NCBI RefSeq assembly: GCF_011492945.1
Contig: NZ_CP045119.1
Span: 3,658,001-3,722,000 of the forward strand
Source of the DNA: Rubrobacter tropicus
Lineage (GTDB): Bacteria; Actinomycetota; Rubrobacteria; Rubrobacterales; Rubrobacteraceae
DNA length: 64,000 nt
Direction: 5' to 3'
In this document: piece by piece, positions 17,602 through 42,957 of the stretch
Layout of the letters: the number at the start of each line of letters is the position of its first letter
How positions within the stretch are numbered: position 1 is the stretch's first letter
Notes under the pieces: model-generated
What the model was told of the DNA's origin: nothing
Seen by the model: the letters and a program-made list of their open reading frames with translations, nothing else
Database searches by the model: none
Made by a program: the position numbers and the translations under genes

Positions 17602-19369
17602 GCGGCGCCCAAGGAACGCGCAAGCAGAACTTCCGGAGGCGAGACTCAGGACGCTTATAGAGCAGGCGCCTTTGGCCATGCACGTCTTCGCCCGCGACGG
17701 CACCTCACTCTTGGTAAACAAAGCCTGGGATGAGCTGTGGGACCTTGAAGAGGGGGAAAGCTCCGAAGGCGAGAACGTGTTCGAGGACGAGCAGGTCCGG
17801 GCCGCGGGGCTCCTGCCCCACGTGAGGGAGGCCGTGGAAGGCGAAACCGTTGAGACGCCGCCCCTACTCTACGAACCGCGCCGGACCGGACGCGGAGGTC
17901 AGCCGCGGTGGATGAGGGCGTTCTGCTACCCCGTCAAGGGGGAGGACGGGGAGACGAGGGAGGTGAGCCTCATCATAGAGGACGTTACCGAGCGCAAGAA
18001 TCTCGAGGACAGCCTCGCCCACCGCGCCCTCCACGACGGGCTGACCGGGCTGCCCAACCGGGCGCTCCTAACCGACCGTCTGGTCCACGCCCTCTCCCGC
18101 GTCGGGCGCGAAAACGGGTCGGAGTCCGGCGAGACGGTCGGGGTGCTCTTCCTTGACCTGGACAATTTCAAGCACGTCAACGACTCTCTCGGGCACGGGG
18201 CGGGCGACGGGCTCCTCGTGGAAGTAGCGGCCCGCCTAACGTCCTGCGTCGGGCCGGGCCACACGGTCGCACGGCTGGGCGGCGACGAGTTCGTCATCCT
18301 GCTGGAAGGTCTGGAAAACGAAGAACTGGCGCAGGAGGTGGCGGGGCGTATCGCCCGGGAACTCAGACCGCCGTTCTCCCTGGATGGCCGGGAGGTCTTC
18401 GTAACCGCGAGCGTCGGGGTTGCAATTGGCAAGGTCGGAAAGGGCGGTCAGGAGGACCCCCAGAACCTCCTCAGAAGCGCGGACGTGGCGATGTACACGG
18501 CCAAGGAGCGCGGCAAGGATCGCCACGTCGTTTTCGAGACCTCGATGGACGGCCGGTCGGAGCGGCGCCTGACGCTCGAAGCCGGGCTGAGGTACGCCCT
18601 GGAGCGCGAAGAGCTCGGCGTGCTCTACCAGCCCGTGGTGCGTTTGGCAGACGGCCGAGACGCCGGCGCCGAGGCGCTCGTGCGCTGGAGGCATCCGCAG
18701 CGTGGCGTGGTACCTCCCGCGGCGTTCATACCGCTCGCCGAGGAGACCGGACTTATCATAGGGATCGGGGAGCAAGTGCTCAGGGAGGCCTGCGCCCGGG
18801 CCCGCGAGTGGCGGGACCTTCTGAAAGGGGGCGGTACACCGACGGTCTGGGTCAACCTTTCGGCCCGCCAATTCCACGAGCCAGGCCTCCCTGAGCTCGT
18901 GGAAAGCGTTCTGGAGGAGGCGGGACTCGACCCCGGATCGCTGGGCTTGGAGATAACGGAGGGCGTCGCCATGGACGAGTCGGGGTTCGGTGCCGGGCGC
19001 ACGACGGCCACGCTACGGAACCTCAAGGAGCTGGGGGTGCGTCTGGCCGTGGACGACTTCGGCACAGGGTATTCTTCCCTCTCCTACCTGAAAAGGCTTC
19101 CTTTGGACGTCCTGAAGATCGATCGCTCGTTCGTCTCTGGCCTCGAAAAGAATACCGAAGACCGGGCGATCGTCTCCGCGGTGGCGACCCTCGCGCGGGA
19201 CATGGAGCTCGAGGTGGTGGCCGAGGGCGTAGAGACGGAAGAACAACTCCATATCCTCCGTGAGTTGGGCTGCAGCCTCGCGCAGGGCTACTACTTTGCA
19301 AAGCCGCTGCCGGCCACTGAGGTCTCCGCACGGTTGGAGGGGGGCCTGGCGTCTGCTACGGGTCCGTAG
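17588..19369 (+). CDS. PAS-GGDEF-EAL cyclic-di-GMP turnover protein
   Basis: Soluble protein of 593 residues: one PAS domain (about 20-140, ending DVTERKN), GGDEF (about 145-310) with VARLGGDEFVILLEG, and EAL (about 325-580) with GAEALVRW, VNLSARQF, LEITEG, VDDFGTGYSSL, LKIDRSFV and AEGVET. Both active sites look complete. Unlike the four other cyclase domains in the window it lacks the RxxD inhibitory site (VGPGH where the others have RPED or RAED), so product inhibition may be absent. The annotated TTG start has GGGAGA nearby, but a small ORF overlaps it. The next gene on the same strand, 100 bases on, is a GGDEF-only sensor. Confidence 0.9.
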   Translation: MSAVERRPRNAQAELPEARLRTLIEQAPLAMHVFARDGTSLLVNKAWDELWDLEEGESSEGENVFEDEQVRAAGLLPHVREAVEGETVETPPLLYEPRRTGRGGQPRWMRAFCYPVKGEDGETREVSLIIEDVTERKNLEDSLAHRALHDGLTGLPNRALLTDRLVHALSRVGRENGSESGETVGVLFLDLDNFKHVNDSLGHGAGDGLLVEVAARLTSCVGPGHTVARLGGDEFVILLEGLENEELAQEVAGRIARELRPPFSLDGREVFVTASVGVAIGKVGKGGQEDPQNLLRSADVAMYTAKERGKDRHVVFETSMDGRSERRLTLEAGLRYALEREELGVLYQPVVRLADGRDAGAEALVRWRHPQRGVVPPAAFIPLAEETGLIIGIGEQVLREACARAREWRDLLKGGGTPTVWVNLSARQFHEPGLPELVESVLEEAGLDPGSLGLEITEGVAMDESGFGAGRTTATLRNLKELGVRLAVDDFGTGYSSLSYLKRLPLDVLKIDRSFVSGLEKNTEDRAIVSAVATLARDMELEVVAEGVETEEQLHILRELGCSLAQGYYFAKPLPATEVSARLEGGLASATGP

Positions 19370-19468: not shown

Positions 19469-21394
19469 GTGAGCATCCAGTACACACCTTACGTACTGCT
19501 GCCGCTGGCCTCTGCCCTGGCGCTCGCTTTTCTGGCCGTGGTCGCCTGGCGGCGAAAGGAGACGCCCGCGGCGATGCCTTTCGCCGCGCTTATGATGGCC
19601 GCGTGCGGGTCCAAGCTTGCCTACGCGCTGATGATGCTTTCGGCGTCCGTGAACGGAAAGATTTTCTGGACGAAGGCAGAGTACCTTGGTGCCGCCGCCA
19701 TGCCGGTGGCGTGGCTGGCCTTCGCCCTCGTGTTCGCAGATTTTGCGTGGGGACGAAGACTCCACCGCACCGTGGCCGTCCTGGCCGTGATACCGCTTTG
19801 CACGTTACTGTTCACGTTGACCAGCGGGCTACACGGCTTCGTGTGGGACACGGTCGAACTGGACCGTTCGGGCCCGTTTGTGGTTCTCGAGATGGTGCGG
19901 GGGCCCTGGTATTGGGTCCACGCCGTCTACTCCTACGCGCTCGTTCTCTGCGGCACGGCCTTGCTCGCGTACAAGATCGCCCGCTCTTCGCGACTCTACC
20001 ATCCGCAGGGCGTGGCGCTACTCTCGGGCGTGCTTCTGTCTTGGGGGGCCAGCCTGTCGCACGTCGTGGGGATCAGCCCGGTGCACAACCTGAACCCGGG
20101 CGTGCTGGTCTTCCCGGTCACCGGCGCCCTGTTTGCCCTGGGCCTTTTCCGGTTCCGGTTCCTGGACCTCTCTCCCGTGAGCAGGACCGACGCCTTCACC
20201 AGCCTACGCGACGGGCTCATCGTGACTGACCCCCGGGGGCGCGTCGTCGACCTCAACCCGGTCGCGGCCAGCATCCTGGGCCACGCGCCCGCCCGGGTGC
20301 TCGGTCGTGGCGTCTTTGGCCTCTTGCCGATCAGCCCCGCGATCCACCGAACGGCAGACGATGCGCCGCACCAGGAGATCTCCCTGAAGAACGGCTCGAC
20401 GCGCCGCTACGACGTGACCTTCGCGCCGCTGGAGGGCGACGGGAACTCCCTGGGCCGTCTCTTTTCTTTGAGCGACGTAACGGAGAAGAGGCGCGCCGAA
20501 GAGACACTCAAGGAGAGCGAGGAGCGTTTCCGAGCCGTCTTCGAGGGGGCGGTGATCGGCATGGCACTTACGAACGCCGAAGGCAATCTAGTGCGCGCCA
20601 ACACCGCCCTCAATCTCATGTTCGGCTACGGAGAAGGGGACCTTCGCGGAAGGTCCTTCCACCAACTCACCCACCCCGCAGACCGCATCGCCGGGTCGGA
20701 ACCCTACCGCGAGATCGTGGATGGCCGGCGCGACCGCTACCGGGCGGAGAGGCGCATGCTCAAGAGAGACGGCACGGTGATATGGGCCCGCCTCAGCGCC
20801 TCGGCGATCCGCGGTACGCGTCCGGAGCAGGGGCTGGCCGTCGTCATGGTCGAGGACTTCACGGACAGGAAGGTGCTCGAAGAGGAGCTCACCCACAAAG
20901 CGTTCCACGACCCCCTCACCAACCTGCCCAACAGGCACCTGTTTGCCGACCGTCTGAAGCACGCCTCGGAGCGCGCCACCCGGTCGGCCGAGGGTATGGC
21001 GGTGTTCTTTATAGACATCGACGACTTCAAAGAGGTCAACGACTCCCTGGGCCACGAAGCCGGCGACCGGCTACTTTCGGAGGCCGGCGCGCGCATGAGG
21101 TCCTGCGTGCGGCCCGAGGACACGGTGGCGCGCCTCGGCGGTGACGAGTTCGCGGTCTTGCTGGAGGACGTTACAGAGTGGGAGGCCCGGCAAGCGGCCA
21201 GAAGAATCGGCGAGAAGGTGCGCGCGCCGTTCTATTTGGACGAATCCGGCCGGCGGGTTTCGGTCACCGCCAGCGTGGGCGTCGCCGTCGCCCAGGGCGG
21301 CGGTGCTCTGGACCCTTCAGCCTTGCTCCGGGAGGCGGACCGGGCCATGTATCGCTTGAAACAAAGACCCGGTAGAGGCAACCGTTCTTCGTAA
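19469..21394 (+). CDS. 7TM-PAS-PAS-GGDEF diguanylate cyclase
   Basis: Membrane sensor of 641 residues. Seven helices (about 5-225) are followed by two PAS domains (about 240-345 and 350-470) and a GGDEF domain (about 475-635) with VARLGGDEFAVLLED and an RPED I-site. There is no EAL domain, so it is the only dedicated cyclase-type protein here. The N-terminal module is paralogous to the module of the GGDEF-EAL protein at 9102 and of the broken kinase at 5931: each has a WxxVxYxG-like helix and a conserved GPWxWV segment. The GTG start is preceded by GGGAAG. It converges with the next gene, leaving 46 bases between stop codons. Confidence 0.91.
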   Translation: MSIQYTPYVLLPLASALALAFLAVVAWRRKETPAAMPFAALMMAACGSKLAYALMMLSASVNGKIFWTKAEYLGAAAMPVAWLAFALVFADFAWGRRLHRTVAVLAVIPLCTLLFTLTSGLHGFVWDTVELDRSGPFVVLEMVRGPWYWVHAVYSYALVLCGTALLAYKIARSSRLYHPQGVALLSGVLLSWGASLSHVVGISPVHNLNPGVLVFPVTGALFALGLFRFRFLDLSPVSRTDAFTSLRDGLIVTDPRGRVVDLNPVAASILGHAPARVLGRGVFGLLPISPAIHRTADDAPHQEISLKNGSTRRYDVTFAPLEGDGNSLGRLFSLSDVTEKRRAEETLKESEERFRAVFEGAVIGMALTNAEGNLVRANTALNLMFGYGEGDLRGRSFHQLTHPADRIAGSEPYREIVDGRRDRYRAERRMLKRDGTVIWARLSASAIRGTRPEQGLAVVMVEDFTDRKVLEEELTHKAFHDPLTNLPNRHLFADRLKHASERATRSAEGMAVFFIDIDDFKEVNDSLGHEAGDRLLSEAGARMRSCVRPEDTVARLGGDEFAVLLEDVTEWEARQAARRIGEKVRAPFYLDESGRRVSVTASVGVAVAQGGGALDPSALLREADRAMYRLKQRPGRGNRSS

Positions 21395-21440: not shown

Positions 21441-24400
21441 TCATCGCGGAGGGAGGGGATATCTCCAGTAGCTGCCCTGTCCTAGGGCGCAACCGAGGGA
21501 GAGCAAGGTCGAGCGCTCGTCTTCGGTCTCCACCCCCTCCGCTACCAGCCCCAGGCCCAAAGACTCGGCCAGGGCAACCGTGGCCGAGACGATCGCGGCG
21601 TTCGCGCGGTTTTTCTTCACCCCGGCCACTATCGACCGGTCGAGCTTAAGTTGGTCGACGGGAAGTTGTCCCAGGGAAGAGAGCGACGAGTATCCCGTCC
21701 CGAAGTCGTCTATGGCCAAACCGACCCCTATACCTTTGAGCTCGCGCAGCACGCCAAGATCGGCGCTCGTTTCCCCGACCAGATCGTCTTCTGTGAGCTC
21801 CAGTGTAAAGGCATCGGGAGGGAGAACCGTCCCCGCGACGGCTCTGGCGACGTCCGACGTAAAGTCCGCGTCGCGTAGCTGGCGCAGGGAGACGTTGATG
21901 TTGATGCGAAACGGCCCGCCGGCGGACCTTATGTCCGGGCCTACGCCCCTCACCTCCTCCCACCACGCCCGTATCTGGCGGCAGGTCTCCCGGAGAACCC
22001 AGCGTCCGATCGGAACGATCAGGCCCGTCTCCTCCGCCACCTGGAGAAAGTCGCGCGGGGCTAGCAAGCCACGCTTCGGGTGTTTCCAACGCAAGAGCGC
22101 CTCAGCGCCGACAGCCTCGCCGGTCTCTATCCTAATGATCGGCTGGTAGTGCAGGCGGAACTGCCCGCGCTCCAACGCCCGGCGCAGGTCGTTCTCCAGG
22201 GAGAGGCGGGTCCTGGCCTGATCCTCCATAAAGGGTTCGAAGACGGCGTAGGACGCCCTCCCTCCCCGCTTGGCCCGGTACATTGCCAGGTCCGCCTCCC
22301 GTAAGAGGTCGCTTGGGTCCTTCGCCCCGCCCTCGCCGCTTGAGATCCCGATGCTGACGGTCACAAAGGCCTCTTGGCCGTCGAGGACGAAGGGGTCACC
22401 CAATGCTTCGGCGATCCTCGCGGCGGCCTTTTCTGCGGCCCCCGCATTCTCCTCCTCCAGCAGTACGACGAACTCGTCGCCGCCGAGGCGCGCCACCGTG
22501 TCCTCGGGCCTCAGGCACTGCTCCAGTCGCCTGCCGACCGCGACGAGCAACCGGTCTCCCACGTCGTGGCCCAACGAATCATTGACGACTTTGAAGTTGT
22601 CTATATCCATGAACAGCAGCGCAACCCGCCCGATGCCCCGCCGCGTCCTCAGGAGGCACCTCTCCAAGCGCTCGGTCAACAGCGCCCGGTTGGGCAGCCC
22701 TGTCAGAGAATCGTGAGTGGCCCGGTAGGCGAGCCGTTCTTCGAGTAACTTGCGCCCCGTGACGTCCCTGAGGACCGCCTGCACCGCCGGCCTGCCCGAG
22801 TAGGTTATGGGCTGTCCGACGACCTCCAAGTCCAGCACGCCACCGTCGAGCCGGAGGTACTTCTCCTCCAACAAGGGTGCCCGGTCGCCCGTCTTGAGGG
22901 TGTGCCGGACGCGCCAGGACACGAGCGCCCGATACGCGGGATGTACGAAGTCCAGAACCTTCCTGCCCACCAAATCCTCCGGCGAGGCCGCACCGAAGAG
23001 CTGCGCCCCGGCCCGGTTTATGAACAGTAGCCGTTCCCCGTCGTGGACGGCGATGGGTTCAGGTGAGAGCTCCACCAGCTTCCGGTAGCGCTCCTCGCTC
23101 TCCTTGAGCGCCATCTCCGTGCGCTTGAACTCGGTGATATCGAACATCACGCCATGCCAGACCTCTGTCTCCCCCTCCTTGCTTATGAGCCTGCCATCCT
23201 CCCTGAGCCACACGATCCGGCCGTCCTTGGCAACCATGCGGAACTCTAGCCTGAAGGGCTCGCCGGTTTGACCGGTACGCACGTCTTCCGCAAGCACGCG
23301 CTCCCTGTCTTCGGGGTGCAACACGGTCTTCCAGAACTCCGGATCGGAGGTGTACTCAGCGGGGGTGTACCCGAGGATCGCCTCGATCTGCGGGCTGATA
23401 TAGGACGTGTAGCTCGTGCCACCTGGATTCTGAGCATGCACGTAGGTGACGGCCGGCACCCCCTCGACTATCGTACGGTACTTCGCCTCGGTCTCCCTGA
23501 TTCGCTCCTCCGCCAGTTTCCGCTCGGTTACGTCCGCAAAGTAACCCTGCCAGAACCTGGGCCTTCCCTCGTCGTCGCGTATCAGCACCGCCTCGTCTCT
23601 GAGCCACACTGCCCGCCCGTCCTTGCGGATCATACGGTACTCTATCCTGAAGGGCTCACCCGTCCCGTTGGTCCTCTCGTTCTCGGCCAGCACCCTCTCG
23701 CGATCTTCGGGATGGAGGATGTTCTGCCAGAACATCGGATCGTGGAGGAACTCTTCGGGCTCGTAGCCCAAGACGTCCCGCACGAAAGGGCTGCGGTAGA
23801 GGGCGGAGTTGCTCTCGTCCGCCGCGTCTATGTAGACGACGGCCGGCACGTTCTCCACCAGCGCCCGGTAGCGCTCTTCGGCCTCCTTGATCCGCGCGTG
23901 TAGCCGGGCGCGGCTGAGCGCGTCGCTCGTGTGCTCGCCCACTGCCTCCAACAGCCGCAGGTCCTCTTCAGCGAGCTTCGCACCGTCGATGCTCTCGACG
24001 TTCAGGGTCCCGATCACCTCGTCCCGGTCGAACAAGGGCACGCAGATTTCGGAGACGATGCCTTGTATAGCGTCCAGGAACTCGGGGTCAGTGTGGGCCT
24101 CTTCGAGGTACGCCGGCTCACCAGAGCGCGCGACGCGCGCCATCACGCCCCGCGAGAGGGGGATGCGCTCCAACACCGAGCGGTACCCCACCTGGCGCTG
24201 CAAGACCAACTCCTTCTGCGGTTCTTCGTCTGCGATCAGGTACGCGCTGACCAGGACGTAGCCGTACGTCTCCGCGACGGCCTCCACGACCGCATCGAAG
24301 ACGTCCCCGGGATCCAGCTCGCGCGAGAGGGCCGTGCGGACCTGGTGGAGCAGGGAGGACTCCCTGGCCTGATGGCGATGACGGCGCTCGCTCTCTCTGA

Positions 24401-25199
24401 GGGCTTCCTCGATCTCCCTCTTCGCCGAGATGTCGGTTAGGTGGCCTTGCCAGTGGGCAAACCCTTCTTCTTTTCCGACCGGCGCGGCCTCGTCGAGCAC
24501 CCACACCACGCGGCCATCGTTGCGAACCATGCGGTACTCCATCGAGAACGACACGCCGGTTCCATCGGCGCCCCTGTCCTCGCCCACAACGCGCCCGCGA
24601 TCCTCCGAATAAGTTACCTCCGTCCAGAAACCGGGGTCTTCTACGAACCGTTCGGGTGGGTAACCCAGAATCTCCTCTACCCTGGGGCTCATGTAGGTCA
24701 CCTCGTAAGAGGCGGGCTCGCTGGTGAGCCCTTTCCGCATATAGATCGCGGCCGGCACGCCCTCGACGAGCTTGCGGTAACGCTCCTCGGCCTCCTCAAG
24801 CCTCCTCTCCGCGAGCTTGCGGTCCGTGACGTCGCGCGAGATGGCGACGATACCGCCCACCTCCGGGTCGGATAGGAGGTTGGTGCGGGTCGCTTCGACG
24901 TGGCGCCAGGAACCGTCTTTATGCCGTATCCTGTACTCGAGCGGCACCTCGATCCCGGGCCTTTCCAGCAGCCGAGAGAAGGCCGCACGAACCCTCTCCG
25001 CGTCGTCCGGGTGGACGTAGTCGAGGCCCTTGCGCCCTACGCGCTCCCCCGGCTCGTATCCCAACGTCCGCCCGATGGAAGGGCTGTCGTAGAGCACCGT
25101 GTCGTCCTCCGCAAGCACGGTGACGATGTCCGCCGCGTTGTTGAGCAGCGAGAGGAACCACCCCTCGCCACCCGGAGAATAGGATGTCATGCTCGACAC
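21441..25199 (-). CDS. Soluble (PAS)2-GAF-(PAS)3-GGDEF-EAL protein
   Basis: Protein of 1252 residues without membrane helices, so a cytoplasmic multi-input sensor. In order: two PAS domains (about 15-265), a GAF domain (about 275-425, with EICVPLFDRDEVIGTLNVES), three PAS domains (about 430-810), GGDEF (about 815-980, VARLGGDEFVVLLEE with an RPED I-site) and EAL (about 990-1240; GAEALLRW, INVSLRQL, LELTED, IDDFGTGYSSL, LKLDRSIV, AEGVET). All key residues for both activities are visible. The EAL domain ends within a few residues of its last helix (GQGSYWRYPLPPR), slightly shorter than usual. Ligands of the PAS and GAF domains cannot be predicted. Confidence 0.92.
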   Translation of the reverse strand: MSSMTSYSPGGEGWFLSLLNNAADIVTVLAEDDTVLYDSPSIGRTLGYEPGERVGRKGLDYVHPDDAERVRAAFSRLLERPGIEVPLEYRIRHKDGSWRHVEATRTNLLSDPEVGGIVAISRDVTDRKLAERRLEEAEERYRKLVEGVPAAIYMRKGLTSEPASYEVTYMSPRVEEILGYPPERFVEDPGFWTEVTYSEDRGRVVGEDRGADGTGVSFSMEYRMVRNDGRVVWVLDEAAPVGKEEGFAHWQGHLTDISAKREIEEALRESERRHRHQARESSLLHQVRTALSRELDPGDVFDAVVEAVAETYGYVLVSAYLIADEEPQKELVLQRQVGYRSVLERIPLSRGVMARVARSGEPAYLEEAHTDPEFLDAIQGIVSEICVPLFDRDEVIGTLNVESIDGAKLAEEDLRLLEAVGEHTSDALSRARLHARIKEAEERYRALVENVPAVVYIDAADESNSALYRSPFVRDVLGYEPEEFLHDPMFWQNILHPEDRERVLAENERTNGTGEPFRIEYRMIRKDGRAVWLRDEAVLIRDDEGRPRFWQGYFADVTERKLAEERIRETEAKYRTIVEGVPAVTYVHAQNPGGTSYTSYISPQIEAILGYTPAEYTSDPEFWKTVLHPEDRERVLAEDVRTGQTGEPFRLEFRMVAKDGRIVWLREDGRLISKEGETEVWHGVMFDITEFKRTEMALKESEERYRKLVELSPEPIAVHDGERLLFINRAGAQLFGAASPEDLVGRKVLDFVHPAYRALVSWRVRHTLKTGDRAPLLEEKYLRLDGGVLDLEVVGQPITYSGRPAVQAVLRDVTGRKLLEERLAYRATHDSLTGLPNRALLTERLERCLLRTRRGIGRVALLFMDIDNFKVVNDSLGHDVGDRLLVAVGRRLEQCLRPEDTVARLGGDEFVVLLEEENAGAAEKAAARIAEALGDPFVLDGQEAFVTVSIGISSGEGGAKDPSDLLREADLAMYRAKRGGRASYAVFEPFMEDQARTRLSLENDLRRALERGQFRLHYQPIIRIETGEAVGAEALLRWKHPKRGLLAPRDFLQVAEETGLIVPIGRWVLRETCRQIRAWWEEVRGVGPDIRSAGGPFRININVSLRQLRDADFTSDVARAVAGTVLPPDAFTLELTEDDLVGETSADLGVLRELKGIGVGLAIDDFGTGYSSLSSLGQLPVDQLKLDRSIVAGVKKNRANAAIVSATVALAESLGLGLVAEGVETEDERSTLLSLGCALGQGSYWRYPLPPR

Positions 25200-26481: not shown

Positions 26482-29400
26482 CTACCCGTCCAGGAAGCGC
26501 GGCACCTCTTCGGGGCGCAACGGCCTGGCGAAGTGGTAGCCCTGGGCCATATCGCAGCCCATCTCCCGCAGGCTCGTTGCCTGCTCTCCTTTCTCTACGC
26601 CTTCTGCCACCACCTCCATCCCCAGGGTGTGGGCCAGCTCGATGACCATGCGCACGATCGCCGTGTCTTCCATGTCTTCGCCTAGACCTGCGACGAAAGA
26701 GCGGTCGATCTTCAAGATGTCGGCCGGCAGGCGCTTTAGGTACGAGAGCGAGGAATACCCCACCCCGAAATCGTCTATGGAGATGCGTACCCCCGCCTTC
26801 TTCAACCCGTCCAACGCGGCCGTGTTGCCCTCCAGCGCCTTGACGTAGACCGTCTCCGTCACGTCCAGGGTCAAGCAGCTCGCCTCCAGGCCGGTCTTCT
26901 CCAAGATTTGCTCCACGGTGCCGGCCAGTTCGGTGCGCTGGAGCTGCTTGGCCGAGAGGTTCACAGACAATACGAGCGGGGGCGTGTGAGGGTGACTGTC
27001 CTGCCACTCTTTAGCCTGGCCGCAGGCCTCCTCCAGCACCTTGGTCCCGACGGGAGTTATGAGGCCGCTCTCCTCGGCGATCGGCACGAAATCGGAGGGA
27101 TCGAGCAGACCCCGTCGCGGGTGGTACCACCTGACCAACGCCTCCACGCCCCGGGTCTCGCCGGTTTGGAGGCACACCATCGGCTGGTAGCGGACGGCCA
27201 ACTCCCCCGATTCCACGGCTTTTCTGAGGTCATTCTCAAGCTCTAGGCGTCGGACGGCTCGCTCGTACATCCGCGGGTCGAACATACAATAATCCGAGCC
27301 TTCCTCCTTGGCCCGGTACATAGCCGTGTCGGCATCCCTGAGCAGCTCTTCCGGGCCCCTGCTATAGGACCCTCCCAGGGCGATACCTATGCTCGCGGAG
27401 GCGAACAGCTCCCTGCCCTCGAGGGAGAAAGGCCTCCGGAGCTCAGCCGTGATACGCTCCGCCACCTGGACTGCATCGACCGGGTCCCCGACGTCCTCGA
27501 CGAGCACGGTAAACTCGTCGCCGCCGAATCGAGCTAGCGTGTCCTCCGGACGCAAACAGCGTCGCAGGCGTTCGGCCAGTACCACGAGTAGGAGATCTCC
27601 CACCTCGTGGCCCAGAGAATCGTTGACCACCTTGAAGTTGTCCAGATCTACGAACAGCACCGCGACCTTGCGCCCCCGTTGGCGCCGGGTGCGCCTCAAG
27701 GCCTGACCCAGCCGGTCGACGAAAAGCGCGCGGTTGGGCAGATCTGTCAAAGGGTCATGGTAGGCCCGATGCTTGAGCTGCGCCTCCAGGGCCTTGCGCT
27801 GGGTGAGATCGTGCACGGTGCCGACTACCCGCAAGGGTTCACCCGCCTCATCCCTGACGACCTCCGCCCGACGGTGCAGCCAACGCACCTCCCCGTTCGG
27901 CCTGACGATGCGATGCTCCACGTCGTACGGTTTGTGACCGACCAGGGCCCCGTTTATGACCTCCGAGAGACGTTCCCTGTCTTCTGGATGCACGATCTTC
28001 ATGAACCTCTCGAAGCTCGGCACGAACTCCTGGGGCGCGAGACCGTAGATGCGGTAGACCTCGTCCGACCAGGAGATCTTCCCCGTCCGCACGTCCCACT
28101 CCCACCCGCCAAGGTGCGCCAGCCGCTGTGCCTCCGCCAACCTGATCTCGCTCTTGCGCACGGCCTCCTCGGCCTCCTTGCGCTCTGTCATGTCGAAGAG
28201 TACGCCCTGCCAGTGAAGGGGTTCCCCGGCTTCGTCCCTTATCAGCACCGCCTGCTCGCGTACCCAAACCACCGAGCCATCCCTGGCCAGCAACCGGTAT
28301 TCCTCATCGAACCGCCCGCCATTCCTCTCGAAGCGCTCATCGGCCGCCAGAATTCGCTCCCGGTCCTCGGTGTGTAGCCGCTGCGGCCACAGCCTACCGG
28401 TCAACCACTCTTCCGGCGTATAGCCGAGCATCTCTTCTATCTGCGGGCTCGTGTACAGAGGCGTATCGGAGCCGTCGGCCCGGTCTATGTAGCTCACAGC
28501 CGGGATCTGTTCCACGAGGGTGCGGTAGCGCCCCTCTGCCTCCTTGCGCTCGGTCACGTCCCTGCCGTTGAGCACCACCGCCCCCACGTTCGGGTCGTCC
28601 AGCAGGTTGGTACCCACGGTATCCAGGTGCCGCCAGGAGCCGTCGCGATGCCGCACCCTTACCTCCATCGATACCGGGATGTTCGGCCTGCGTAGGATCT
28701 CGGCGAACGTTTCCCTCGCCCGGGCGACATCGTCTGGATGGATCAGTTCGAACGACTCGGCTCCTATCCTTTCCTCGGGGTCGTAGCCCAACACACGTTC
28801 GAGGGCCGGGCTGGCATACTTGACAGTCCCGTTCGTGTCGTAGAGGGTGATGATGTCCGAGGCGTTTCGGATCAGGGACCGGAAGTGCTCTTCGCTCTTC
28901 CTCAACGCCTCTTCGGTCTTCCTGCGCGCGGTGACGTCGGCAAAGGTCACCACGGCCCCGGTTACCTCGCCGTCCTCCCATATAGGGGTGCTCGTGTACT
29001 CGACGGGAAAGGCGGTGCCATCCTTGCTCCAGAAGACCTCGTCTTCCACGCGGTGGACCTCACCATCCGAGAGCGTCGCGCGGATAGGACACTCCCCTTC
29101 CGGGTAGCGTGTTCCATCGGCTCTGGAGTGGTGGATGGCTTCGTGGAGAGATTGGCCGATCAGCTCTTCGGAACCCAACCCGGTCAACCTCGCGGCCGCC
29201 GGATTGACGAAGGTCGCGCGACCGTTGCGGTCGAGGCCGCATATGCCTTCCCCGGCCGAGCCGAGGATAAGCTCGTTGCGGCGGGCGAGTCGCTCGATGG
29301 TTCGTTCGGCCATCTTGCGCTCGGTAATGTCCACCATCACGCCGAACAGCTGCGTGGGGACGCCGTCCTGGACGCCCACGCACACGATGTCCCGCAGCCA

Positions 29401-30168
29401 CACCACGCCGCCGTCTGCGGAGATCATGCGGTACTCGAAGTGGTGATCCTCTTTCTCGTCCACGGCCCGGCGGCAAAAGTCGACCGCCCACTCGCGGTCC
29501 TCGGGGTGGATATGATCCTGCCAGAACGAAGGCTCTCGCGTCCAGCGCTGCGCCGGATAGCCGAGGATGGTCTCGGCCTGGTCGCTCACGAAGGTGAAGC
29601 GCAGGTCCTGGGCCTCCCCTTTCCAGATGATCGCCTCGACCGAGCCGACGAGTTCCTCGTACTCCCGGCGTAAATCGTAGATTTCCTTCTCAGCTTCCTT
29701 GCGCCGGGTGATGTCGCGGGAGCTGACCACGACGCCACCCACCGCCGGATCGTCGAGCAGGTAGGTACCCGTGCTCTGCATCCACCGCCAGGAGCCGTCG
29801 CTGTGCCTGAAGCGGTACTCGGCCTCGTTTCTGGCGATACCTCCCTCCGACAGAGCCTTCCCTGTCTCTTCAAGGACGTGAGGAAGGTCGTCAGGATGCA
29901 CGTAATCCAGCACGTTCATGCCGACCGTCTCCTCGGGATCGTAGCCCAAGATCCGGCTCCAAGCAGGATTAGCGTAGCGAAGCGTGCCATCCGGATCGAC
30001 GATGCTCACTATCTCGGAAGAGTTCTCCAGGACCGATCGCAACCAGCGATTGTCCTCTCCCGGCGCACCGGTCACATGCTCAGGTTCATGCACTCCACCG
30101 TTCGCACCATTGGTCAGCTCTTCTCGGTCCTGCTTGGGGAACCCCACTGCTCCCTTTCCGACGCCCAT
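26482..30168 (-). CDS. Soluble (PAS)6-GGDEF-EAL protein
   Basis: Protein of 1228 residues with no membrane segments. Six PAS/PAC units (about 35-795) are recognised by repeated phrases such as LGYDPEETVGMNVLDYVHPD and by TERKEAE linkers. GGDEF (about 800-965) reads LARFGGDEFTVLVED with an RPED I-site. EAL (about 975-1225) has GVEALVRW, VNLSAKQL, IDDFGVGYSSL, LKIDRSFV and AEGVEK. The ExTE metal motif reads LDVTET, so one glutamate is replaced by aspartate, which may weaken phosphodiesterase activity. Domain layout parallels the protein at 21441, and the two probably arose by duplication and domain reshuffling. Confidence 0.92.
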   Translation of the reverse strand: MGVGKGAVGFPKQDREELTNGANGGVHEPEHVTGAPGEDNRWLRSVLENSSEIVSIVDPDGTLRYANPAWSRILGYDPEETVGMNVLDYVHPDDLPHVLEETGKALSEGGIARNEAEYRFRHSDGSWRWMQSTGTYLLDDPAVGGVVVSSRDITRRKEAEKEIYDLRREYEELVGSVEAIIWKGEAQDLRFTFVSDQAETILGYPAQRWTREPSFWQDHIHPEDREWAVDFCRRAVDEKEDHHFEYRMISADGGVVWLRDIVCVGVQDGVPTQLFGVMVDITERKMAERTIERLARRNELILGSAGEGICGLDRNGRATFVNPAAARLTGLGSEELIGQSLHEAIHHSRADGTRYPEGECPIRATLSDGEVHRVEDEVFWSKDGTAFPVEYTSTPIWEDGEVTGAVVTFADVTARRKTEEALRKSEEHFRSLIRNASDIITLYDTNGTVKYASPALERVLGYDPEERIGAESFELIHPDDVARARETFAEILRRPNIPVSMEVRVRHRDGSWRHLDTVGTNLLDDPNVGAVVLNGRDVTERKEAEGRYRTLVEQIPAVSYIDRADGSDTPLYTSPQIEEMLGYTPEEWLTGRLWPQRLHTEDRERILAADERFERNGGRFDEEYRLLARDGSVVWVREQAVLIRDEAGEPLHWQGVLFDMTERKEAEEAVRKSEIRLAEAQRLAHLGGWEWDVRTGKISWSDEVYRIYGLAPQEFVPSFERFMKIVHPEDRERLSEVINGALVGHKPYDVEHRIVRPNGEVRWLHRRAEVVRDEAGEPLRVVGTVHDLTQRKALEAQLKHRAYHDPLTDLPNRALFVDRLGQALRRTRRQRGRKVAVLFVDLDNFKVVNDSLGHEVGDLLLVVLAERLRRCLRPEDTLARFGGDEFTVLVEDVGDPVDAVQVAERITAELRRPFSLEGRELFASASIGIALGGSYSRGPEELLRDADTAMYRAKEEGSDYCMFDPRMYERAVRRLELENDLRKAVESGELAVRYQPMVCLQTGETRGVEALVRWYHPRRGLLDPSDFVPIAEESGLITPVGTKVLEEACGQAKEWQDSHPHTPPLVLSVNLSAKQLQRTELAGTVEQILEKTGLEASCLTLDVTETVYVKALEGNTAALDGLKKAGVRISIDDFGVGYSSLSYLKRLPADILKIDRSFVAGLGEDMEDTAIVRMVIELAHTLGMEVVAEGVEKGEQATSLREMGCDMAQGYHFARPLRPEEVPRFLDG

Positions 30169-30374: not shown

Positions 30375-32444
30375 TCACATGGCCAGGTCGTCCGCGCGAG
30401 GGGCATCGGGGCCGAGGATCGCCTGGTACAGCGCCTTTGCGACCGTCGGGTCGAACTGGGCGCCGGCCTGGCGCATGATCTCCTCCAGGGCCACCCCGAC
30501 AGGCTTACGGCTGCCGTACGGGCGCTCGCGCGTCATCGAATCGAAGGCATCGGCCACGGCGGCCACCCGCGCGATGAGCGGGATGTCTTCGGCGCGCAGG
30601 CCGTCGGGGTAGCCCAGGCCGTCGAAGCGCTCGTGGTGATGACGGATCGCGGGCAGCGCGACAGCAAGCTCGGGGATAGGGGCCACTATCTCGGCGCCGA
30701 CGGTGGGGTGCCGCTTTATGACAGCGTACTCCTCGTCGGTCAGCCTGCCCGGCTTGTGCAGGATTTGGTCGGGTATGCCGATCTTGCCGACGTCGTGGAG
30801 CAGGGCCCCGATCTCCAAGGCGTCGAGTTCGTCTTGGGGCAACGATAAAGCGCGGCCAATGCTGCCTGCGACGCGCGAAACGCCGGCCGAATGACCCGCC
30901 AGGTACGGATCGCGCGCCACCATGGCCCTCACCAAACCCCGGACGGACGGTTGGTCCGGTTCTGCCGGCCCACTTTCGGAGGTTTCCCGGGCGCCCACAA
31001 CCGCACCGGCGATCCCCCCCGCCTCGCCCCGCGCCTCTTCGAGCGCGAGCAGCGCCGTCGCCACGAGCGTGTCGGGGTTCTCGGCCTGCGTCCCGGGTCG
31101 CGCGAACCCCACCGCCGTCTCCACGCCGGTTCCTATGAGGCCTTTCGATTCTTCGTCGAGAACCCGCATCAGCGAGCGAGCCTTTCCCGCCGCCTGGGCT
31201 TCTTCGCTGACCTGCGCCAGTACGATGATCGTATCCTCCGCGTACCGGAAGGCCCGCAGCCCTCGGCACCCGAGCCTCTTTCCGAGGCGTCCGAGCAGGT
31301 CCTCCGCCGAAGACGAAGCCGCATCCCCCAGCCCGACAGCCAGAACCGCCGGAGCGACGCCGGCAGAAAGCTCGCGACGCAGGACGCGGGCCAACGATGA
31401 CGCGTTCGGCAAACCCGACGACGGGTCGGTTCCGCCGGCGGCGTCCGGGCGCCGCTCCAGCGCGGGCCGCACCTCGGCGGCGAGCCGCAGCAGTTCGCGC
31501 TCCTCTTCCGCCCCCACGCGACCGCCCCCGACGACTATGGCGCCCCACTTCTCCTCGTCGGGTGAGCCCACGGGTACCGCGACGAAGCCTTCCATACCGT
31601 GAACGCCCCCGTCAAGCCGAACGGCGCCACCCTCACGACAGCTCCAGAGCACGAGGCGTTGCACGGAAGGATGCCACCAGCTCGGGCAAGCGTCCGCCTC
31701 CCCCCGCATGACGGTGCGATGCGTGTTGCCCCTGAGCGACGCCACGTGCCCGTAGGGGGCCCCCGCGACGGCGCAAGCGGCCTCCGCGGTGTAGCCGAGG
31801 GCCGACTCGATGTTCAGTGCCTCCAGGACCGGGGTCATGGCGCCGGCTTGCGCGGCGACCCTCCCGGCGCGGTCCCTCTCCTGCGCAACGGCGGCCGACA
31901 GTCCGGCCGCGCGCGTCCGGAGCGCGTGCACTTCAGAGCCCACGAGGAGTGCCGAGGCGCAGAAGAGCACCAGGATCGCCATCCTCAAGGCGAACTGCGA
32001 CAATCCTGAGCTTTCCCACCCCCCTGCGGCGAGCGTGGCGAGCAGGTACCCACCGATAAGGACCAACGCCGCGCCGGCGCTCTGGGCCCTCGCCCGGACG
32101 CGACCCTCCGGGTCACCCGAGACGTTTACCAGCGAGAGCACGGCCGGAAAATACAGCGGGAAGAAGACGGAGGCGGCGCCACCAGTATCCGCCAAGACCA
32201 TGCTTACGATGAGCGTGTCCGCCGTGACAGGCACGATCCTCCGTCGGAAAAGGAGCCCCGGCCGGACGGTCGCGAGCAGGCCCAGGCCGGCCGCGACCAG
32301 CGCCGCCACATAAGCCCACACGGCGTCCCCAAAATTCCAGGATACGCCCAAACACAATAGAACCACGGCCGCGAGCGCCAGGCGGATCGGGCCCTCGTAC
32401 GACTCGCGTATGGGCCGTGCACTCGGGCTCTCGACTTTTTTCAT
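30375..32444 (-). CDS. Membrane GAF-HD-GYP phosphodiesterase
   Basis: Protein of 689 residues with about five to six membrane helices in the first 175 residues. A GAF-like region (about 200-335) is followed by a degenerate GGDEF-like segment (about 345-480; signature replaced by RYAEDTIIVLA) and a complete HD-GYP domain (about 510-675) with GALLHDVGKIGIPDQIL, IKRHPTVGAEIV and HHERFDGLGYPDGL. Family knowledge predicts hydrolysis of cyclic-di-GMP. Its ATG overlaps the stop codon of the upstream degenerate HD-GYP gene (ATGA), so the two membrane proteins are co-translated and may act as a pair. Confidence 0.9.
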   Translation of the reverse strand: MKKVESPSARPIRESYEGPIRLALAAVVLLCLGVSWNFGDAVWAYVAALVAAGLGLLATVRPGLLFRRRIVPVTADTLIVSMVLADTGGAASVFFPLYFPAVLSLVNVSGDPEGRVRARAQSAGAALVLIGGYLLATLAAGGWESSGLSQFALRMAILVLFCASALLVGSEVHALRTRAAGLSAAVAQERDRAGRVAAQAGAMTPVLEALNIESALGYTAEAACAVAGAPYGHVASLRGNTHRTVMRGEADACPSWWHPSVQRLVLWSCREGGAVRLDGGVHGMEGFVAVPVGSPDEEKWGAIVVGGGRVGAEEERELLRLAAEVRPALERRPDAAGGTDPSSGLPNASSLARVLRRELSAGVAPAVLAVGLGDAASSSAEDLLGRLGKRLGCRGLRAFRYAEDTIIVLAQVSEEAQAAGKARSLMRVLDEESKGLIGTGVETAVGFARPGTQAENPDTLVATALLALEEARGEAGGIAGAVVGARETSESGPAEPDQPSVRGLVRAMVARDPYLAGHSAGVSRVAGSIGRALSLPQDELDALEIGALLHDVGKIGIPDQILHKPGRLTDEEYAVIKRHPTVGAEIVAPIPELAVALPAIRHHHERFDGLGYPDGLRAEDIPLIARVAAVADAFDSMTRERPYGSRKPVGVALEEIMRQAGAQFDPTVAKALYQAILGPDAPRADDLAM

Positions 32445-33853
32445 CGGGGGACTGCCCCGTGATCGTTACCCTCCCGGAACCCCAATCGCCCCCCGTTCTC
32501 CAAGCTAAAGAAGGCGAACCGATGGTCGTCGGCCATCCTGTACCCCTCGGATTCGGTGTCCAGGATCCTCAGGAACGCCCGCACCACCACCCCGTCGAAC
32601 TGCGTGTCCACGCCGCCGCCGAGTTCTCGGCGCGCGTCTGCGGGGTTCATGCCCGGGCGGCTGGGTCCGTCGAGTACCATGGCGGCGTAGGCCTGGGCCA
32701 CGGCGAGTATCTTTGCCTCCACGGGTATCCACGCGCCCCTGAGTTTGTCGGGGTAGCCACGGCCGTCCGGTCTCTCATGGTGCCACCTCACCCACGAGGC
32801 CACCTCCCCGAACTCGGGCACCGCGGCGAGCGCCTGCTCGCCGCGGACCGGGTGCTCGGTTAGCCGGGCCTGGGCGACGGAGTTCGGCCTGCCCGTGGCG
32901 AAGAGGATCTCCTCCGGCAGGCCGAAGAGGCCGATGTTATGCAGGAGGCCCGCGATCCGCAACCGTCCCGCGCGGGAATCCTCAAGCCTCATCTCCCGGG
33001 CCAGGTCTGCGGCGTAGACGGCGGTGGCCGCGGCGTGGCGGTGGGTGTAGCCGTCCCGGCGGCCCAGATCGCGGATTATCATGGTGGCGAACGTCGTATT
33101 CGAGCTCGCGAGGGCGTCCTCCATGGAGGACAGGCGATCCGTCAGCTCGCGGATCTTCTCTACCTGCTCCCGGGAGCGGTAGACGAGAACCTGGCTGCAC
33201 ATGGCGCCGGCCACCGTCACCACCGCGGCCACGGGCCCGTAGAGAACGAGCGCCAGCACGCCGAACGCCGCCGTAAGGACGTTGACCAGATCGGGCAGCA
33301 GGTAGGGTTGGACGACCTCCTGCCAGGTCTCGCCGAACGGACGCTCGTACTTTACCTTGTAGGTTGCGGCGCTGACGGCTTCGCTGGCCCCCGTGAGGAC
33401 CACCCCCGAGAGTAGAGCACCGTACAGAACGGCGGCAGGAGGGGCCGAACCATCCAACAGTACCGGTCCCGAGACGAACGAAAAAACTGCACCCGCCAGG
33501 TGAACGATTACTACACTGTGGGCCAACTCGTATGTCGTTCGCAATGGACTTCGTCCGCCGACCAGGATCGCCGACGGAACGGCCGCGAGGGCGGCCCAGG
33601 TCGGACCGACCATCACCACGGCCACCATGAGCGCGATGTCCCACGCGCCAATAGCGGACTGCTCGCTCACGCGCAGCGCGTAGAGGTCCCCGAGCAGGAC
33701 CAGGCTGCCCAGAATCAGGGTGCCCACGATGAGGCGCGCGTCCAGGGTGAGCCCGAAAAGGTACACCCATGAACCGACGAGCGCCGTCGCGAGAGCAGCT
33801 AAGACCCCGACGTAGGTTCTTAGACGATGCTCCCCCGGCTTGTTTTCGCCCAT
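32441..33853 (-). CDS. Membrane protein with degenerate (HN-GYP) domain
   Basis: Protein of about 470 residues with six or so helices (about 10-230), a coiled coil and an HD-GYP-like domain. The metal-binding pair reads AGLLHNIGLFGLPEEIL, so the aspartate is an asparagine and the following lysine is lost. WHHERPDGRGYPDKLRG is kept, and the later D..DAM is AQAYAAM. The same two sites are altered in the protein at 13514, which also shares the N-terminal layout. Catalysis is therefore doubtful. The ATG at 33853 is used; a longer frame to 33910 would translate through repeated leader segments and has no better ribosome site. It is translationally coupled to the intact HD-GYP gene downstream. Confidence 0.85.
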   Translation of the reverse strand: MGENKPGEHRLRTYVGVLAALATALVGSWVYLFGLTLDARLIVGTLILGSLVLLGDLYALRVSEQSAIGAWDIALMVAVVMVGPTWAALAAVPSAILVGGRSPLRTTYELAHSVVIVHLAGAVFSFVSGPVLLDGSAPPAAVLYGALLSGVVLTGASEAVSAATYKVKYERPFGETWQEVVQPYLLPDLVNVLTAAFGVLALVLYGPVAAVVTVAGAMCSQVLVYRSREQVEKIRELTDRLSSMEDALASSNTTFATMIIRDLGRRDGYTHRHAAATAVYAADLAREMRLEDSRAGRLRIAGLLHNIGLFGLPEEILFATGRPNSVAQARLTEHPVRGEQALAAVPEFGEVASWVRWHHERPDGRGYPDKLRGAWIPVEAKILAVAQAYAAMVLDGPSRPGMNPADARRELGGGVDTQFDGVVVRAFLRILDTESEGYRMADDHRFAFFSLENGGRLGFREGNDHGAVPR

Positions 33854-33858
33854 CGCGA

Positions 33859-33929
33859 CGCCCGAGTCCAAAACGCCACTATTTTTGCACAGAACTCGGG
33901 CATCGCACAACGCGCAAATCTGCCCGAGT
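33859..33929 (-). promoter_or_regulatory. Leader with mutually exclusive hairpin arms
   Basis: On the coding strand, ACTCGGGCA (33929-33921) pairs perfectly with TGCCCGAGT (33902-33894) across 18 bases. A second copy of the first arm, GACTCGGGC (33868-33860), lies six bases before the ATG of the HN-GYP gene. The middle arm can pair with either copy but not both, so the downstream pairing would mask the start region. Regulation is inferred from geometry. Confidence 0.4.
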
Positions 33930-39591: not shown

Positions 39592-40000
39592 GACTCCGTA
39601 AAGAGAGGGCCGCCGCCGCGATTTGACTTTGTCGCTGTGAGATTCTTGGGAGCTCGCGGATAGCGGTGGCGCATCCTGCGTACAGGGCGTCTTTGGGCCG
39701 TCGCGCCGCTTTCGTTGGTGTATCTACGGAGGATACGAGCCGGACTCACGGGGGCCACAACTTGAGAGCGTTCGAAGAATTATCTTAGATCGAAGGGCCC
39801 ACCCCTCCGGCTTTGGAGCGACCGTGTGGCGTGTGTCGGATGCGCTTGTTCTTGTCGTGGAAGAGCTTCGCGCTCCATACTCCTGTTCTCTCGAACACCA
39901 AACCTGGGAACCGATCGGACCGGCAGCTTGCGTCCATTTCACCCGCTAGTGTGCGCATTTACTCCGGTCCCACGTGCATTTGTAGTAGACTGGGCAAACT
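39592..40000. other. Upstream region of the riboswitch transcript
   Basis: About 400 bases with no credible gene. The promoter of the riboswitch transcript should lie near its end, around 39940-39990. The sequence is neither repetitive nor strongly structured. Confidence 0.35.
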
Positions 40001-40078
40001 CACGAAAAGGCAAACCCGTCGCGAGGCGGAGGACGCAAAGCCACGGACCTCTCAGGAGGTGGCCGGGCTACCGAAGGA
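40001..40078 (+). ncRNA. Cyclic-di-GMP-I (GEMM) riboswitch
   Basis: The conserved core is present in order: AAGGCAAACC (40007-40016), a short stem capped by a GCGA tetraloop (40021-40024), GGACGCAAAGCC (40031-40042), a hairpin ACCTC-TCAG-GAGGT (40048-40060) and GGCCGGGCTACCGA (40061-40074). These are the hallmark elements of the GEMM-I cyclic-di-GMP aptamer. The aptamer ends directly at the ribosome site AGGAGGGA of the next gene, so translational control is likely. Whether it turns expression on or off cannot be read from the sequence. Confidence 0.92.
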
Positions 40079-40084
40079 GGGAAG

Positions 40085-41107
40085 ATGGCACGCGGCCCGC
40101 TTGTTATATTATTAGCATTTATCGCAAGCTCCGTCGTATGGTGGGGAGAGGGAACAGCACGGGCGGCGACCGACTGTTCGGGCGTTCAGATCCGCGAAGG
40201 CGACGACATCTCTCTGGTGGCAGACGCCCATGGCGCGCGGACGACGTTCTGCATCAACGACGGCGAGTACCCTGTCGTTCGGTCCGTCAAAGTACAGTCG
40301 GGGGACCGCTTCCGGGGAGTGTACGGTGACGGAACTAGGCCGATAGTAAGGGGCGCAGGCGCTACTACCATCTTCGACACGTTCGGCTCCGACTCAGCTG
40401 CGATCATCGGCCTTCGGGTTCAGGGGGCCATCGGCAGCGAGGCCTGTTCTCCCAACTGCGGGCGGGGCATAGGCGGGGGTGGCACGAACCTCTACGTCTC
40501 TGATGCGCACCTCATGCACAACGCCAATCAGGGCATAGGCGGGGTGGGTCCCGGTCTACTCGTGGTCAACTCCGTGTTCGACGACAACGGGTACGATTCC
40601 ACCTTCACGGGCGAGACTGCCGGGCCGGTGAGCGCGGCGGGCATCAAGAGCGTCAACTCGATGATCATCAGAAACTCGGTCGTCAAAGACAACCGCTGGG
40701 CCGGCCTGTGGTGCGACATCGACTGCACCCGTTTCGAGGTGCACGATTCGACCGTCGTCAGGAACGGCAAGGTCGGCGTGCACGACGAGATCTCCTCCGG
40801 TGCCGCCATCGTCGAGGGTAGTACCATCAGGTACAATGGCGGCCTCGCGGCGGCGGGATCTCGACGGGCAGACCTGATCGCCCTCAACAGCAAGAACTTG
40901 AACGTATTCGGCAACACCTTCGGCGGCAAAAACGGCGCCGCCCTCATTGTCGCTTTCGATGAGGCGAGATTCAGGGCGGAGCCCAGAGGCGATGGGGGAT
41001 TCGCCCTAAGGAATATCGATTTTCACCACAACCGTCTGAACGGTGACGCCCTCTCGGGGTGCGGGCTGCCCGACTGGCGGGTGCACTGCTACAAGAATGG
41101 TAGATGA
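40085..41107 (+). CDS. Secreted right-handed beta-helix protein under c-di-GMP riboswitch
   Basis: Protein of 340 residues with a signal peptide (hydrophobic 5-20, likely cleavage after GTARA at about residue 28). The mature part has beta-helix repeats rich in G, N, D and short beta-strands: GIKSVNSMIIRNSVVKDNRW and VHDSTVVRNGKVGVHDE are typical rungs. Conserved cysteines occur in TDCSG, TTFCIND, CSPNCGRGIGG and WCDIDC. This fold occurs in polysaccharide lyases and surface-binding proteins, but no lyase catalytic motif is evident. It starts six bases after AGGAGG, immediately behind the riboswitch. It is a paralogue of the minus-strand gene ending at 41654. Confidence 0.85.
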   Translation: MARGPLVILLAFIASSVVWWGEGTARAATDCSGVQIREGDDISLVADAHGARTTFCINDGEYPVVRSVKVQSGDRFRGVYGDGTRPIVRGAGATTIFDTFGSDSAAIIGLRVQGAIGSEACSPNCGRGIGGGGTNLYVSDAHLMHNANQGIGGVGPGLLVVNSVFDDNGYDSTFTGETAGPVSAAGIKSVNSMIIRNSVVKDNRWAGLWCDIDCTRFEVHDSTVVRNGKVGVHDEISSGAAIVEGSTIRYNGGLAAAGSRRADLIALNSKNLNVFGNTFGGKNGAALIVAFDEARFRAEPRGDGGFALRNIDFHHNRLNGDALSGCGLPDWRVHCYKNGR

Positions 41108-41212
41108 GGGCGCTCGTACGCCCCGCGACTACCTTCATCTCCGCGTGGCGCGCCGACGATCTCCACGGTCGTGAAGGCCCCAACTTGCGGCGCAGCGACG
41201 GGGATTACCAAC

Positions 41213-41238
41213 GGGCTCGGTCTCTGGAGACCGAGCCC
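41213..41238. terminator. Hairpin between convergent beta-helix genes
   Basis: GGGCTCGGTCT (41213-41223) pairs perfectly with AGACCGAGCCC (41228-41238) around a CTGG loop. It lies about 105 bases after the plus-strand beta-helix gene and lacks a T run, as is common for high-GC hairpin terminators. It could serve both strands. Confidence 0.6.
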
Positions 41239-41653
41239 CGAATGTGCGGTTGCTCCCTCCGTCTGTTGCCACCGTCCTCACGGAATGCCGGCCGCGAGCA
41301 GGTGACCGGGTCGTAGCGAGATGGTTCGGCACGCCGCCTTTGACCCGCCCGCCTGTCTCATCGTTACGATACGGTCTCGGGGGATCACTACCAAAACAGG
41401 CTACGACACGATGGCGTACGCGCGCAGGTCATCTGGCACCGCCCCGGCGTCCCGAATCACAACGTTCAGCAAGGACCGAAATCCCCGAGGCCCTGACTCG
41501 CCCGACTGACGGCCGTTCTCACACTCCGATCGGCATGAACTCCGAGCAGGCAGCGTTGCGCCCATCCTCTAGAACGCCGGTTTCCTGGCCGTGACTCCTT
41601 CCCCGGTCGGGAAGGTAGCGAGGCCCCTGTCCGCGGAAGCTTCCGTTGCAGGA
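41239..41653. other. Convergent intergenic stretch
   Basis: About 415 bases between the hairpin and the stop of the minus-strand beta-helix gene. No gene, RNA motif or further strong hairpin is recognised. Confidence 0.35.
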
Positions 41654-42619
41654 CTAGAGGCATCCCACGCCCGAGAGCGTGCAGCCGACTATAGCGTCGC
41701 CGCCCATCGTGTTGTTGTAAATGCTGATGTTCCCGAGAAGCGGTGTCCAGTCGCGGTCGTCCTCGGCCACGTGGATACCGTAGTACGTGTTGCTCCCGAA
41801 GGCATTGCCGTACACCTCGGCATTGGCGGACGCGTAGATGATGAGCCCAGCGCGGCGCCCGGCCACCGCGGCGTTGGTCCCGTTGCCCCGTATAACGTTG
41901 TTGGCGAAGACGGCCGGACCGCTCGACGCTTCGTAGTGTATGCCCGCCTTGCCGTTCGCCGTGATCGTATTGTTCCTCACCTGAAAGGCGTCGCAGTCGT
42001 TGTCACACCATACGCCGGACCAGTAATTGTCGTGAACGCGAGAGTTGAGCACGGTCATCGAGTTGACGCTCTTGATGCCCGCCGCGCTCTGCGACTCGCC
42101 GAACCTCGCGAAGGCGGGACTTCCGTTGTGATCTATCCGGGAGTAGGTAACGAGAAGCCCGGGTCCCGTGCCCCCGATTCCCTGGTTCTGATTGTGGTGA
42201 GACCACACGTTGTTGATCGTGAGGTTCGTACCACCACCGATGCCTCTTCCGCAGTTCGGCTTGCAGTGGTCTCCGCCCACCGCGCCACTCATCCCGAGTC
42301 CCCGGATCGTGGCCCCGCGGGAACCGTTGGCATCGAACACGTGCTGCGCCTTCGTGGTCGTGACAGACGGACGTGTTCCATCGGAGAACATCCCGATAAA
42401 CCTGTCACGATTCTGGACCCTTACCGGGGTCGGGACAGCATAGTTGCCATCTTTGATGCAGAACGTCGTGCCAGCCCTGGCGTTGGCTGCCACGCTGGAA
42501 AGGTTCTGCCCCGGAGAGACCTGCTTGCCCGTGCAGGTCGCCCCCTCTGCCTGCGGGACGTAGGCAAAAGCCGAGAATAGCGTGGCCAAGGTCGCTGACA
42601 ACACCAACAAACGTTTCAC
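41654..42619 (-). CDS. Secreted right-handed beta-helix protein, paralogue without riboswitch
   Basis: Protein of 321 residues starting at GTG 42619, where GGAGG lies six bases upstream. A signal peptide (VKRLLVLSATLATLFSAFAY, cleavage near QAEGA) is followed by beta-helix rungs. The protein shares many blocks with the product of 40085: GTTFCIKDGNY, DGTRPSV, CKPNCGRGIGGG, NQGIGGTGPGLLV, SAAGIKSVNSM and WCDNDC. The cysteine pattern is conserved. No GEMM core is found in its leader, so the two paralogues are controlled differently. A surface or matrix role is inferred from secretion and the neighbouring exopolysaccharide genes. Confidence 0.83.
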   Translation of the reverse strand: MKRLLVLSATLATLFSAFAYVPQAEGATCTGKQVSPGQNLSSVAANARAGTTFCIKDGNYAVPTPVRVQNRDRFIGMFSDGTRPSVTTTKAQHVFDANGSRGATIRGLGMSGAVGGDHCKPNCGRGIGGGTNLTINNVWSHHNQNQGIGGTGPGLLVTYSRIDHNGSPAFARFGESQSAAGIKSVNSMTVLNSRVHDNYWSGVWCDNDCDAFQVRNNTITANGKAGIHYEASSGPAVFANNVIRGNGTNAAVAGRRAGLIIYASANAEVYGNAFGSNTYYGIHVAEDDRDWTPLLGNISIYNNTMGGDAIVGCTLSGVGCL

Positions 42620-42957
42620 GCTAGACCTCCGTCGTTTTTGCGCTCCCCTGCGATCCTCCTCACAATCTGCCCTTGCCGACTCAGTCCAGGCCGCCTGGGG
42701 CTCGGCTGTACCGGCCACCACAGCAAGCCCGGGCCACGGGTTCGTAAGACGCCCCTACGTAGCCAGAATCGCACGGAGGCCCTGCGAGTAGTACAGCCTA
42801 CAGCGAGAAGCTACGATTCCCCCTCCAAAGGAATTCTTTCGCAGCATCTTACGGTTTTTCTTTCGGCCAAGTATCTACTCAACTGGATACGCTGTATATT
42901 GGTCATCTGACCCATATTTTCTGACCGGCAGACCCATATCCGACCGGGATTACGACA
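42620..42957. promoter_or_regulatory. Leader region with paired GACCCATAT repeats
   Basis: GACCCATAT occurs twice, at 42909-42917 and 42931-42939, exactly 22 bases apart, in an AT-rich patch about 300 bases upstream of the beta-helix gene. The spacing of two helical turns suits a regulator site. The rest of this 338-base region has no gene. Confidence 0.35.

Follow-up and report, generated by a model that had tools for sequence, protein, structure and literature searches.

Known c-di-GMP control systems

Riboswitches for cyclic di-GMP (c-di-GMP) are themselves well known, and Vc1 and Vc2 of Vibrio cholerae (GEMM-I, Rfam RF01051) are the closest described counterparts of the RNA analysed here. 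Vc1 precedes gbpA, the gene of a secreted protein; no anti-Shine-Dalgarno sequence or terminator is apparent in it, and expression falls when c-di-GMP is lowered (PMC4744006). In Rubrobacter, a member of the deep-branching actinobacterial class Rubrobacteria, the same second messenger acts through proteins on transcription initiation: RsiG, with c-di-GMP, binds WhiG, and WhiG-type promoters of R. radiotolerans were mapped before pilus and c-di-GMP genes, riboswitches being unmentioned (PMC8325347). The literature searched contained no c-di-GMP riboswitch from Rubrobacteria, none fused to the ribosome site of a secreted enzyme and none coupled to WhiG-type promoters.

The window (64,000 nucleotides of the Rubrobacter tropicus sequence NZ_CP045119.1) carries a leader that resembles Vc1 and Vc2 in architecture, in G20, A47 and C92, in the GNRA tetraloop and in its 5'-leader position, and it likewise precedes the gene of a secreted protein. 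Unlike in Vc1 and Vc2, the 3' strand of helix P1 overlaps the Shine-Dalgarno sequence, and the start codon (ATG, 40085) lies 8 nt past the aptamer end. With the WhiG/RsiG system it shares the organism family and the second messenger, and WhiG-type promoters precede many of its sister riboswitches, whereas the window leader itself is without a WhiG box. What is added to the known systems is a translational mechanism that can be put to the test, together with the association of riboswitch and WhiG promoter in relatives.

Identity and ligand class of the aptamer

The whole window was searched with cmscan, and the sole RNA-family match at or above the gathering score was located at 40000–40076 (+), with 59.0 bits and E = 2.3e-11 for RF03167 (c-di-GMP-I-GGC). 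The same interval also scored 59 bits on RF01051 (c-di-GMP-I), for which the gathering score is 35, so that the covariance-model search proposed in the earlier note gave a high-scoring match. RF01051 sites numbered eight in the R. tropicus genome and were found in 0 of 14 control genomes. Aptamer positions are numbered according to PMC3764141. The ligand contacts G20 (40009), A47 (40037) and C92 (40071), read from the sequence, are kept; A47–A49 correspond to 40037–40039 and A95 to 40074. The P1 core consists of the pairs G40004–C40072 and C40003–G40073. Rfam alignment and mapping placed P2 at 40010–40036, with the GNRA tetraloop GCGA at 40021–40024 and, relative to the Rfam model, an extra bulged A at 40030, and P3 at 40039–40069. 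The Shine-Dalgarno sequence AAGGAGG occupies 40074–40080 and thus starts within the last helix strand of the aptamer, which ends at 40076; most relatives are arranged alike. The claim that all GEMM-I elements are present, in order and directly before a ribosome site was thereby borne out, and 40000–40076 is confirmed as a genuine c-di-GMP-I aptamer; its start was corrected to 40000, with an extended P1 strand from 39999.

The top-scoring Rfam label, c-di-GMP-I-GGC, could indicate another cyclic dinucleotide as ligand, either that of a GGC-type variant or cGAMP, which we regard as highly improbable. The meaning of 'GGC' was taken from the RF03167 model consensus. This model has the fold of the window RNA and aligns with it end to end at 59.0 bits, but its consensus (GGACGCGAAgCC) prefers G at position 47, where the window (GGACGCAAAGCC) has A47. 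Because of this difference the window RNA was filed, on its sequence, as a canonical c-di-GMP-I aptamer, the GGC name being a tie of scores with RF01051, and the GGC label was set aside. Positions 47–49 read AAA in all 86 parsed relatives. An A at position 20 is typical of the cGAMP-sensing GEMM-Ib type and is absent in the window, where this base is G40009. Position 20 is G in 84 of the 86 relatives, and the other two, with A, represent the same locus in sister genomes; these sister aptamers (L092, L094; G029:C10:845-921, G009:C4:35295-35371) stand before a gene of the GH26-like cluster. The cyclases encoded in the window also speak against another ligand: in five GGDEF domains the GGDEF motif is intact and the canonical Asp is present, which favours c-di-GMP as the signal; cGAMP-making Hypr enzymes carry Ser at the canonical-Asp position (PMC6456294).

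Expression platform and proposed mechanism

For comparison, 87 aptamers with flanks were collected from 25 Rubrobacteraceae genomes, 86 of which could be parsed for base positions; genome-wide statistics were based on genome searches and on the retrieved stretches. In most leaders the aptamer ends with CCGAAAGGAG or a similar sequence and the start codon follows a few nucleotides on, so that the P1 3' strand is the Shine-Dalgarno sequence, while in a smaller class the aptamer ends with CCGAACAGC and the Shine-Dalgarno sequence lies further down. The distance from aptamer to start codon is 5–20 nt in 39 of 87 leaders. The two P1 strands change together, UCC-ACG occurring with GGA, GCUG-CG with CAGC and, in the window, CUC-ACG with GAG. 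In the extended P1 register (12–97, 11–98, 10–99 and 9–100), 206 of 340 pairs are formed, compared with 146±7 (maximum 174) in 5000 shuffles; as shuffling leaves relatedness in place, slid registers served as a control for it and gave 114–143 pairs. The covariation holds for unique sequences, where again no shuffle gave as many pairs. It is likewise found in the leaders that use the P1 strand as Shine-Dalgarno sequence (132 pairs vs 113.6±4.3; 0 of 5000 shuffles reach 132) and within the window's own genus (112 pairs vs 94.5±3.8; no shuffle reaches 112).

In the window, the 5' strand of the extended P1 is CUC at 39999–40001, complementary to the Shine-Dalgarno core GAG at 40077–40079 in the register that covaries in relatives; the extension comprises three pairs only, beyond a 1x3 internal loop. 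Fold prediction left GGA 40076–40078 unpaired (>0.9) when P2 and P3 were native, and GAG 40077–40079 became paired (~0.9) when the P1 core was imposed. No terminator was found between the aptamer and the start codon. The covariation of the extended P1 and the folds with and without the P1 core speak for a ribosome site that becomes hidden when ligand stabilises P1. The leader is thus likely to be a translational c-di-GMP-I riboswitch in which the P1 extension hides the Shine-Dalgarno sequence at high c-di-GMP. Transcription would probably start at about 39998, adjoining the first aptamer bases; c-di-GMP would be bound via G20, A47 and C92, whereupon the P1 core would form, and the extension CUC(39999–40001):GAG(40077–40079) would close over the Shine-Dalgarno sequence and turn translation off. 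With this site covered at high c-di-GMP, the protein would be made when c-di-GMP is low. The helix of P1 and Shine-Dalgarno sequence would represent a compact translational expression platform, testable by mutation and compensation.

The opposite sign of response was weighed against this reading. When the window leader was folded in isolation and without constraints, the minimum-energy structure differed from the aptamer: in it, the P3 5' strand CCUC (40048–40051) pairs with the Shine-Dalgarno sequence, with an ensemble energy of -43.1 kcal/mol vs -39.3 kcal/mol for native P2 and P3. Were this the ligand-free state, expression would be off until ligand activates it: the P3 3' side would form a hairpin with J3/1, and c-di-GMP would restore P3 and free the ribosome site. 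Vc1 of V. cholerae, which stands before a secreted protein and raises expression with c-di-GMP (PMC4744006), provides a precedent for such an ON switch. These energies, however, leave out tertiary contacts and co-transcriptional folding, and CCUC-like P3 sequences also occur in leaders with the Shine-Dalgarno sequence elsewhere. The anti-aptamer hairpin of the P3 3' strand with J3/1 is complementary, yet its variable pairs do not covary (64–74 paired in 53 of 82 vs 55.8 expected, 65–73 in 66 of 82 vs 64.2), and for this reason it was not adopted as the mechanism. Activation by c-di-GMP is considered doubtful. That the aptamer folds but is idle, with no measurable change in the expression of 40085–41107, appears improbable: the window copy ranks second weakest of the eight c-di-GMP-I sites in the genome, and the extra bulged A 40030 and the short P1 extension point in the same direction, but the contacts, the tetraloop and the register of P1 with the Shine-Dalgarno sequence are kept although other bases vary.

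Promoters upstream of the riboswitches

A putative -10 box, TAGACT, is placed by its position at 39986–39991 (+), with no matching -35 box, and is the source of the predicted transcription start at about 39998. Across 86 leaders, TANNNT hexamers peak 23–24 nt before G20, and the window TAGACT stands at -23. A sigma-70 promoter scan upstream of the window aptamer gave no hit. The WhiG box TAAAG-N12-17-CCGATAA is absent upstream of the window leader, as is the strict pattern from the whole R. tropicus genome.

A WhiG/FliA-type box (the above pattern with small variants) at most 110 nt upstream is present in 25 of the 38 leaders that do not belong to the window's genus, compared with 1 of 49 leaders in the window's genus and 2 of 2921 control segments. 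A slightly different count gave boxes on the sense strand only (23 vs 0); usually 7–11 nt lie between the end of the -10 and the aptamer, so that transcription should begin at the aptamer. In R. marinus (NZ_CP045121.1), five of six riboswitches lie behind one of the 32 strict boxes of this genome and the sixth behind a box with a single-base change; the six leaders (L066, L074, L096, L106, L114 and L117) place c-di-GMP-I riboswitches directly behind WhiG-type promoters. In another bacterial family of this phylum, riboswitches likewise follow a WhiG-type box. Eight of the 49 leaders of the window's own genus (e.g. L121, L122 and L073), and 3 of 2921 controls, carry sigma-B-like boxes of the form GTTT-N11-16-GGGTA.

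The best match to the window protein outside its own genome, a relative in genome G018 with 45% identity, carries the WhiG box TAAAGTTTTCCACTTCTGGGGCCCGATAA roughly 85 nt upstream of its start codon (L118:4463-4580). A degenerate aptamer was considered for this leader, which ends with CCACCGAAAGGAAACGATG like true leaders, and was rejected, as no GEMM match was obtained even at E = 10. Judged from these sequences, the window's genus would have the riboswitch without the WhiG layer, and the relative of the window's target, which belongs to another genus, the WhiG layer only. For Rubrobacteraceae and some other Actinomycetota, we consider it somewhat more probable than the opposite that c-di-GMP gates the same mRNAs twice, at transcription from WhiG promoters, through the c-di-GMP-dependent anti-sigma factor RsiG that holds WhiG, and then at translation by the helix of P1 and Shine-Dalgarno sequence. 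Secreted hydrolases and beta-helix proteins would then be locked at two levels and, if both layers cooperate, this would be a simple system for studying why one signal is read twice per transcript.

The encoded protein and its surroundings

The gene behind the aptamer, 40085–41107 (+), encodes a secreted right-handed beta-helix protein of 340 aa. Its translation has a hydrophobic N-terminus and matches Pfam Beta_helix (PF13229) with 28.3 bits at a curated cut-off of 25.9, in agreement with the signal-peptide-bearing beta-helix protein described in the earlier note. The structure model was poor (pLDDT 53.8), and a fold search with the protein gave no significant match, only weak polysaccharide-enzyme look-alikes (AlgE4, PL6); a search of the protein against the genome contigs returned no match. 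A convergent paralogue, 46% identical by BLASTP and with an uncertain first codon, is located at 41654–42721 (-); it weakly matches the AlgE4 C5-epimerase (E = 8e-4), and the Rfam search of its upstream DNA found no riboswitch. Most likely, the window protein acts on or binds polysaccharide and would be used while the matrix programme is off. Between the convergent paralogues, at 41212–41240, lies a long inverted repeat, ggctcggtctctggagaccgagcc, a possible shared terminator.

Nine genes of the c-di-GMP synthesis or breakdown type, assigned by Pfam and active-site motifs, lie at 9093–33910, which agrees with the many synthases and phosphodiesterases previously seen in the window. They comprise four GGDEF-EAL genes (9093–13019, 17588–19369, 21441–25199 and 26482–30168), one GGDEF gene (19469–21394), three for HD_5 proteins (13514–14926, 30375–32444 and 32441–33910) and one for HD_5 with a degenerate GGDEF-like domain that is without the GGDEF motif (15228–17222); EAL and HD-GYP proteins accompany the five intact GGDEF domains. 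The genes of a sugar transferase and a phosphatase separate this cluster from the riboswitch gene, past which a response regulator, sulfotransferases, glycosyltransferases and two Wzy-type proteins form an exopolysaccharide locus. The claimed direct link from this island to a surface output can reasonably be inferred, although the c-di-GMP pool sensed by the window RNA may be set by the island enzymes or by others encoded in the genome; as eight such loci exist in the genome, the link is not unique to this one.

Targets of sister riboswitches

Downstream genes were picked with a simple script, and Pfam was run on cluster representatives only. The target clusters comprise subtilases (15), GH16 glycosidases (10) and beta-helix proteins (7, and one more by Pfam), next to GH26, GH5, RTX-repeat, GGDEF-EAL and GAF-HD_5 groups, a histidine kinase and a sigma factor. 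A hydrophobic N-terminal stretch, a crude measure and not a signal-peptide predictor, was present in 45 of 72 riboswitch targets vs 39 of 166 control genes (p = 2e-8). A motif like AGIK...G.WCD..C...GI..E.S recurs in most of the beta-helix targets. Elsewhere in the window's genome, a c-di-GMP-I riboswitch precedes a sigma-factor gene (L120:2073-2982) about 2 kb from the best FliA/WhiG match of this genome. In genome G005, a pair of c-di-GMP-I aptamers (L070) on one strand is spaced by about 260 nt, and a GGDEF-EAL gene follows closely after the second.
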